Positions 580 through 1,493 of a DNA stretch of 64,000 nucleotides are shown piece by piece. How positions within the stretch are numbered: position 1 is the stretch's first letter; the number at the start of each line of letters is the position of its first letter. The position numbers and the translations under genes are program-made. Source of the stretch: a virus. The notes beneath the pieces are model-generated. The model was given only the letters and a program-made list of their open reading frames with translations, was not told the origin of the DNA and made no database searches. The stretch is taken from positions 1 to 64,000 of IMG/VR virus record IMGVR_UViG_3300042154_001567. One strand, 5' to 3'.

Positions 580-682
580 TAGTCAGGACAGGATTTGAAC
601 ATGTAAAAGGAGACCCGTATCTCTTTCTTTGTGCTCGCGGTTTTAAGTGTTAACCTTGCGTCTACCATTCCGCCACTTGACT
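580..682 (-). tRNA. tRNA-like element with long variable arm, anticodon not assignable
   Basis: The minus strand can form a 7-bp acceptor stem (AGTCAAG with CCTGACT, one mismatch). The D-arm, GGCGGAATGGTAGACGC, is typical of leucine tRNAs. The T-arm loop is TTCAAAT between partly paired strands. A long variable region contains a GAGA/TCTC stem. The anticodon arm is abnormal: GGTT pairs with AACC around a 9-base loop (AACACTTAA) instead of 7. At about 103 bases it is longer than a normal class II tRNA. CCA is not encoded. It may be a degenerate tRNA-Leu, a tRNA mimic, or a functional tRNA with an unusual loop. Confidence 0.5.
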
Positions 683-687
683 AGATT

Positions 688-849
688 TTAATAATTCCAG
701 TTAGTTTTATCTATTTTATGCCCATTAACTAAGCAATCAAATACATAATTCCATTTTTTAGTTTTAGTAATATAATCTATTAAAATTTGGCTAAAGCCTA
801 AAGATCTAGAGCCGTTTTTGGTTTTCATTACAATATCTAATACTTTCAT
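688..849 (-). CDS. Unrecognised 53-aa protein between two tRNA-like elements
   Basis: A short open frame of 53 codons starts at the ATG complementary to 847-849 and ends with TAA at 688-690. The protein begins MKVLDIVMKTKNGSRSLGF and ends TNWNY; it is basic and has no membrane segment. It is preceded by a run of A residues on the coding strand, the usual leader style here. The gene fits exactly between the two tRNA-like elements with only a few bases spare on one side. No family is recognised; it could be a chance frame. Confidence 0.5.
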   Translation of the reverse strand: MKVLDIVMKTKNGSRSLGFSQILIDYITKTKKWNYVFDCLVNGHKIDKTNWNY

Positions 850-888
850 TGTTTTTTTTTTAAATTGTGTGTAATTCTGTTTTTATTG

Positions 889-967
889 TAGTCAGGGCCG
901 GACTCGAACCGGATAAACAACCATTTTATTGGACTTGGGCACCATCCCGCATTACGCCCACCTGACT
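889..967 (-). tRNA. tRNA-like element, anticodon not assignable
   Basis: The minus strand has a perfect 7-bp acceptor stem (AGTCAGG with CCTGACT), a good T-arm (CCGG TTCGAGT CCGG) and a D-stem pairing GGCG with TGCC around a long 13-base loop. The anticodon arm does not fold in the standard way: the best pairing is AA-CCA with TGG-TT, with a two-base bulge and a six-base loop ATAAAA. No anticodon can be read with confidence. The acceptor ends match those of the 580-682 element almost base for base, so the two are probably related or recognised in the same way. Confidence 0.5.
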
Positions 968-1223
968 ATATAACACCCTATTCTATCCAACTACAGGTGT
1001 TAAGGCTGTCCCCATCACTGGGTTAGGAATAAACTTATTTAAATTAGATAGTCAATCTAAATAGAACCTTGTCCTATTAGCAGTTCCATATGAGGAATCA
1101 CCTCACTTCTCATCATATTGGACATACTATTTGGTAATGAGCCAAACCGTTTCATTAAATCATAATACAAATATAAAGTTTAATTATATTGTATCAATCA
1201 TTTTAAGTTTAAATTCTTTTAGT
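968..1223 (-). other. Non-coding stretch with several hairpins
   Basis: No credible gene lies here. Inverted repeats are visible: AACACC/GGTGTT at 972-1001, whose minus-strand loop reads TAGTTGGATAGA and so looks like a tRNA D-arm; TTAGAT/ATCTAA around AGTCA at 1044-1060; and a longer structure at 1070-1124 closed by TGTCC/GGACA, with an inner GAGG-TGATT-CCTC hairpin. These may be further structured RNAs next to the tRNA-like pair, or processing sites. Confidence 0.4.
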
Positions 1224-1493
1224 TTAATGTCTACTATCTGAAAAACCTAATTCAACAGCATCAGTAGGATTAGTTTCTATCCAAGTATGACAATTTCTGC
1301 ATACTGGTAACCAAGTGGTGGTATCTAACTGATACTTTCCTCTTCCTTTTTTGTGATGAACATCTGTTGCATGCAAAGAACACTTATGGATCTTTGCATG
1401 ACAAATTGGATGTTGTGTTAAATAAACTTTGCGTATTTTAGAATACTCAGAGTTAGTCTTTGATAACTTGACTGATACTTTTTTGATTGTCAT
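1224..1493 (-). CDS. HNH endonuclease, small (89 aa)
   Basis: The protein has the HNH (His-Me finger) layout: a first cysteine cluster (PICHAK, HKCSLH), the catalytic-region motif TDVHHKKGRG near residue 45, then WLPVCRNCHTWIE near residue 63. Two cysteine pairs (CHAKIHKC and CRNC) can bind the structural zinc of this family. Small phage HNH proteins act as nicking or packaging-associated nucleases or as homing enzymes; the position beside tRNA-like elements and away from the terminase would fit either. It overlaps the upstream minus-strand gene by 41 bases. Confidence 0.85.
   Translation of the reverse strand: MTIKKVSVKLSKTNSEYSKIRKVYLTQHPICHAKIHKCSLHATDVHHKKGRGKYQLDTTTWLPVCRNCHTWIETNPTDAVELGFSDSRH

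Follow-up and report, generated by a model that had tools for sequence, protein, structure and literature searches.

We analyzed a 64,000-nucleotide (nt) stretch of viral DNA, positions 1 to 64,000 of IMG/VR record IMGVR_UViG_3300042154_001567 (hereafter, the window), which is part of a 75.8-kilobase (kb) virus record. Two elements on its minus strand, E1 and E2 (Table 1), resemble transfer RNA (tRNA) genes. We favor, with somewhat more confidence than doubt, the reading that both are tRNA-shaped RNAs that do not decode, and that E2 is functional, with ends that would be processed as tRNA ends are. The E2 family is a conserved RNA and is not decaying. Its structure is conserved and a conserved decoding loop is missing; the elements are nearly restricted to phages, and they have a defined order and orientation.

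E2 belongs to a conserved RNA family without a decoding loop

ARAGORN called no tRNA in the window, and Rfam at its gathering score returned nothing at E1 or E2. In a permissive Rfam scan, E1 scored 24.6 bits against the tRNA family (RF00005), below the 29-bit cutoff; E2 had no RF00005 match, leaving the same cutoff unreached, and the Rfam transfer-messenger RNA (tmRNA) model matched only its T-arm, at 7 bits. A preliminary description, made from the sequence alone, had proposed such relaxed searches as a check, and they left both elements without a tRNA call. It had placed both elements correctly on the minus strand, and its observation that neither forms a normal anticodon arm of 5 base pairs (bp) and 7 nt holds: E1 combines a 4-bp stem and the 9-nt loop it described (GGTT-AACACTTAA-AACC) with a variable arm that is long and bulged. 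In E2, the bulged stem that it drew, with its 6-nt loop, is real and conserved (helix H2). Its statement that both elements have good acceptor and T-arms applies to E2, but is slightly generous for E1, which has one mismatch in each of these stems. Folding of single sequences was uninformative (z of -0.62 for E1 and -1.57 for E2).

Comparative evidence was more informative. A search with the E2 core pattern yielded 43 stretches in phage contigs, and the E2 signature matched at 57 places among all loci gathered (loci are numbered with the prefix L). The family has no match in Rfam. We aligned 30 closely related family sequences (mean column identity, 82%). In the proposed fold, which was drawn from these same sequences and is favored by this on cells paired and less on compensatory changes, 97.9% of cells were paired and eight pairs showed compensatory changes (17 compensatory cells), four of them in the acceptor and four in core helices. 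No shuffle out of 500 was equally good, and slid versions of the fold paired in fewer than 50% of cells. The T-stem is invariant, and so neutral as evidence of covariation. RNAalifold's own best structure drew compensatory support almost only from the acceptor; the drawn structure also explains the changes in the core. A standard cloverleaf was ruled out for E2, as across the family the standard D-stem (10-13/22-25) was paired in only 31.7% of cells.

The apical loop of H2, which occupies the would-be anticodon position, ranges from 4 to 46 nt and holds no conserved anticodon; a decoding role for E2 is therefore very unlikely. The GG of the H1 loop and the T-loop motif were present in 41/41 members, yet both were part of the patterns by which members were gathered. 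C74 is encoded in the DNA and CCA is not. A covariance model of the family (R1) scored the window E2, itself among the 30 model sequences, at 101.3 bits.

Copies of E2 identical at 79/79 positions occur in L331 (a 245-kb contig) and L356 (a 311-kb contig), within a 268-nt stretch 94.8% identical to the window; these two contigs probably represent one phage lineage. ARAGORN called no tRNA in either locus, and isolated phage records contained no match to E2. Two long E2-like elements of 121 nt (L091:9713-9833 and L179:740-860) show a compensatory difference in H1, GTGA/TCAC versus GAGA/TCTC.

E1 and E2 share their ends with a wider class of phage elements

We defined a class by an AGTCAGG/CCTGACT-type acceptor and a T-arm enclosing a non-canonical middle. 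Both elements fit, E1 with one acceptor mismatch. Members begin and end AGTCAGG..CCTGACTA around hypervariable middles, and the 3' half shared by E1 and E2 (GTTCRANTCCNGNCCTGACTA) matched at least 120 stretches in phage elements. ARAGORN called 49 of the 169 elements with both ends, a set biased by the pattern, and gave many of them odd anticodons. Searching the gathered loci with a Leu-type D-arm as anchor identified 93 canonical and 95 non-canonical distinct elements, a ratio that mirrors how the loci were gathered and not natural frequency. All 7/7 acceptor pairs were kept in 89/95 of the non-canonical elements, and in the 27 elements whose 3' acceptor strand differs, pairing stood at 93%, versus 63% after shuffling. 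A 5-bp/7-nt arm with U33 near the expected place was found in 2/93 elements, which are copies of one another. Across the class, then, the acceptor, elbow, T-arm, discriminator and C74 are kept, and the anticodon domain is free or replaced. The middles show more structure than random DNA taken from these loci (mean z of -0.87 versus -0.17, p 1.2e-5), and very diverse (162 clusters among 192).

Among 84,980 bacterial and archaeal species genomes, elements of this kind with exact AGTCAGG/CCTGACTA ends turned up in just 9 stretches, each in a metagenome-assembled or uncultured bin; the class is nearly restricted to phages. Neighboring open reading frames (ORFs) mostly share the orientation of the tRNA-like elements. 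Among the 56 of 136 neighbor ORFs that were scanned, homing endonucleases (GIY-YIG and HNH) were the commonest class, at loci including L087, L110, L103, L331, L117, L322 and L378, and the matches listed included no tRNA-processing enzyme, one QueC apart. A literature search, chiefly outside subscription papers, returned no description of the class.

E1 is a one-off member of this class with a unique middle. Its 3-bp D-arm (GCG/CGC) is of the tRNA-Leu type; an A6.C67 mismatch leaves 6/7 pairs in the acceptor (AGTCAAG/CCTGACT) and a U52.C62 mismatch leaves 4/5 in the T-stem. The 5' half (TGGCGGAATGGTAGACGCAAGG) is common to several phages: elements in L082, L085, L087 and L089 share both the 5' and 3' halves, and L084 shares the 5' half and T-arm. 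E1 may be young, unique or degenerating. Downstream of E2 in L331 lies DNA similar to that found after E1 in the window; therefore, insertion or loss of the E1 unit may have taken place between matching 3' ends.

Several other elements were seen in these loci. A tRNA-ended element of ~156-176 nt recurs (L299:836-992, L106:587-742, L137:5302-5469 and L159:12256-12431) and has a conserved core, which reads CACCCACTCGTC..GGGTTGACCACAAAGCCGGC in several copies. TRNA-ended elements of ~140 nt lie at L322:1032-1174, L105:3829-3970 and L110:3478-3616, the middles being similar in L322 and L105. One phage contig bearing non-canonical tRNA-like elements also carries a tmRNA gene (L106:1088-1533; Rfam 59.1 bits, cutoff 47).

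A second structured RNA family lies beside the tRNA-like elements

Immediately upstream of E2 is a companion RNA, which belongs to a second conserved structured RNA family, new to Rfam. A pattern scan found at least 63 stretches in phage contigs; family members are ~190-220 nt long and include L331, L356, L377-L434 and L081. For 29 sequences RNAalifold proposed 26 pairs, of which 18 showed compensatory changes; 94.7% of cells were paired, 109 cells were compensatory, and 0/500 shuffles were as good. The family matched no Rfam family, and two members tested against isolated phage records had no match. In 30/42 distinct cases the companion RNA starts directly at the 3' end of a tRNA or tRNA-like element, with near-constant spacing, and in 21/42 a tRNA-like start follows it. 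The window, L331 and L356 are the sole places where it lies upstream of E2. Two contigs with the companion RNA contain tRNA-Sec matches barely over the cutoff (L400:1141-1226 and L429:43-128; 48 versus 47 bits).

Genomic setting

The terminase and portal proteins of the contig match PHROGs 6681 and 6547, which, like the gene layout, are those of crAss-like phages; the window belongs to a crAss-like phage contig. E1 and E2 are the sole tRNA-like elements with a T-arm seen in it. Close relatives at the protein level have a tRNA-Arg/Leu/Met cluster at the same place, whose acceptors are not those of E1 and E2 (GGCCGGA in the Leu tRNA, for example).

Table 1. Positions of the tRNA-like elements, their parts and neighboring features in the window
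Feature	Position	Strand	Basis
E1, tRNA-like element, 103 nt	580..682	-	Leu-type D-arm, 4-bp/9-nt arm, long variable arm
E2, tRNA-like RNA of the E2 family, 79 nt	889..967	-	alignment of 30 members, pair counts, covariance search
E2 acceptor	961-967/890-896	-	7/7 pairs
E2 P2, 2-bp helix	956-957/917-918	-	drawn structure
E2 H1, D-arm-like hairpin, nGGT loop	946-948/937-939	-	drawn structure
E2 H2, bulged, variable apical loop	930-935/919-923	-	drawn structure
E2 T-arm	909-912/898-901	-	4-bp T-stem
E2 discriminator A	889	-	sequence
Companion structured RNA, ~190 nt	968..1155	-	pattern scan, alignment; immediately upstream of E2
Small ORF, 53 aa, between E2 and E1	688..849	-	direct translation
Promoter-like sequence, Bacteroidota type, TTG-N19-TATATTTG	1168..1197	-	sequence comparison
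HNH endonuclease ORF, candidate mobility factor	1224..1493	-	PHROG match 5.4e-09; upstream of RNA genes

Positions 1-1150 of the window resemble L331 and L356, and positions 1154-1250 resemble the crAss-like relatives L005 and L010. This switch in homology, at ~1150-1160, coincides with the start of the companion RNA. Because the relatives carry tRNA-Arg and the same promoter-like sequence at this junction, natural recombination is suggested; a chimeric assembly at the contig end may instead account for the switch, and would leave the identity of E2 unaffected. No second contig with a junction at ~1155 was found in a search from which near relatives may be excluded. The position of the promoter-like sequence is conserved upstream of tRNA-Arg in L005 and L010, and the motif alone is about as frequent in the contig as chance would predict (11 seen versus 8.6 expected). 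The HNH ORF had no Pfam match at E 0.01. The 53-amino-acid ORF was not seen downstream of E2 in L331.

A model of tRNA-like processing, and its rivals

RNase P, the 3' processing enzymes and the CCA-adding enzyme read the acceptor, elbow, T-arm, discriminator and C74, and not the anticodon domain. Because the class keeps the features that these enzymes read, and its members sit at the border of a companion RNA, we propose tRNA-like processing as the shared mechanism. A single minus-strand transcript would probably run from the promoter-like site through the 190-nt companion RNA, E2 and the small ORF to E1. Host tRNA maturation enzymes would recognize the tRNA-shaped ends, RNase P acting at the 5' end, and tRNA 3' processing and CCA addition following at the 3' end; cuts at the element borders would release the tRNA-like RNA and its neighbor as separate stable RNAs. 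E2 would be suited to this by its tRNA-like ends and elbow (a 7-bp acceptor, the T-arm, a D-arm-like hairpin with GG, discriminator A and C74), its core having a different conserved fold. Our leading guess for its role is that matured E2 binds a factor that recognizes the tRNA body. We are evenly divided over a broader proposal, that these elements form a large unrecognized phage class of tRNA-ended non-coding RNAs, with exchangeable centers that carry the function, a cotranscribed companion RNA, and a body that serves as a reusable platform for processing and stability.

Several points weigh against this model. Transcription, processing and CCA addition are deduced from sequence, and processing leaves the conservation of the E2 core unexplained. 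The E2 T-stem has only 4 bp, and the 30 aligned sequences are closely related (82% identity, as above). Each terminal stem of E1 carries one mismatch, and no relatives of its middle turned up when we searched for them. The companion RNA is upstream in only 2/52 other E2 loci with enough flank (L331 and L356); therefore, the link is a property of the class and does not apply to E2 in itself. Lastly, the first 1.15 kb of the window may differ in history from the rest of the contig.

The preliminary description had suggested decaying tRNAs, a tRNA mimic or decoy, or tRNAs built to resist anticodon nucleases; taken as a whole, this interpretation is partly supported. Were E1 and E2 remnants of ordinary tRNA genes, this would account for the two mismatches and single-copy middle of E1, and for its CTTAAAA stretch, which recalls the loop of tRNA-Leu(UAA); E1, with no close relative of its middle, may indeed be decaying. 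E2, however, is kept with compensatory changes in many phages, and the class retains the acceptor pairing that decay would lose. Nor does either element look like a decay product of the clade's own tRNA cluster, to judge by the sequences, because the syntenic tRNA-Arg/Leu/Met of relatives have different acceptors; descent from the clade's tRNA-Leu(UAA) was ruled out, as both acceptor and D-arm differ. Decay of both elements thus strikes us as improbable. We give almost no credence to split, intron-bearing or frameshifting tRNAs, in which the middle would be removed or an enlarged loop would read unusual codons: conserved ends around a variable insert are superficially like intron-bearing tRNAs, and E1 has an enlarged loop, but the fold of the E2 family is incompatible with a cloverleaf, its inner helices covary, its loop length runs from 4 to 46 nt, group I introns are much longer than the middles of the class, and no Rfam intron matched.

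The idea of a mimic fared better, fitting E2 and the wider class in that ends and elbow are kept and decoding is lost. Taken further, the elements could be decoys or competitors that imitate the tRNA body and occupy a host tRNA-binding enzyme, a tRNA-targeting defense effector or a synthetase (leucyl-tRNA synthetase, LeuRS), and are themselves unusable in translation. We hold this possible but unlikely. Retention of body and elbow without decoding would suit a decoy, as would the Leu-type D-arm and A73 of the E1 class; the diversity of the middles would suit an arms race, and phage tRNAs are reported to counter tRNA-cutting defenses (PMC10264068, PMC11555353). On the other hand, there is no conserved anticodon loop for an anticodon nuclease to bind, no defense target or effector was identified, and the middles are mostly singletons. 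The idea of nuclease-resistant tRNAs is not supported, as such tRNAs must still decode, and in these elements the loop position is missing or not conserved. We retain non-decoding, tRNA-shaped RNAs with tRNA-like processing as our preferred reading.

Counts of phage tRNAs usually rely on programs that expect a cloverleaf, and these leave out or misname non-canonical elements. That one conserved, non-decoding tRNA-like family occurs both in a crAss-like phage and in very large phages suggests that tRNA shape serves infection in some way other than decoding, and the companion RNA adds a second structured family with no counterpart in Rfam. The stable RNAs of phages such as T4 become a testable question.

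Comparison with known systems

Canonical tRNAs (RF00005) share with E2 the acceptor stem, T-arm (TTCRANT loop), GG elbow, discriminator A and encoded C74; E2 differs in having neither a standard D-stem nor a 5-bp/7-nt U33 anticodon arm, and in falling below the Rfam cutoff. TRNA-Sec, allo-tRNA and tRNA-Pyl likewise have altered arm lengths around a tRNA body, but they still decode by anticodon (reviewed in PMC7609411, in whose text the word "phage" is absent). Nuclease-insensitive phage tRNAs also have changed anticodon loops in phage genes; they are ordinary tRNAs with anticodon-loop mutations, held to stay usable in translation (PMC10264068), whereas E1 and E2 have no decoding arm.

Closer in setting are RNA C and RNA D of phage T4 (species 1 and 2 RNA), which, like the elements here, are phage-encoded stable RNAs in a tRNA cluster beside a homing endonuclease gene (segB). 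RNA C has a T-arm, CCGGGTTCGAATCCCGG, at its end; it differs in its length of 139 nt and in that its acceptor-like pairing lies inside the RNA. At T4 NC_000866 70908-71046 (L375:1409-1547), the T-arm of RNA C is accompanied by an acceptor-like strand able to pair with an internal ACGGAACG, which suggests a tRNA-like 3' domain, although the pairing could be chance. Model R1 matched neither rnaC nor rnaD, its weak matches in T4 being ordinary tRNAs. We know of no function for RNA C or RNA D.

In other hosts, and with other sizes and cores (sequence was compared for Rfam tmRNA only), tmRNA, the tRNA-like RNAs of murine gammaherpesvirus and the MALAT1 mascRNA have tRNA-shaped domains that serve the end processing or stability of another RNA.
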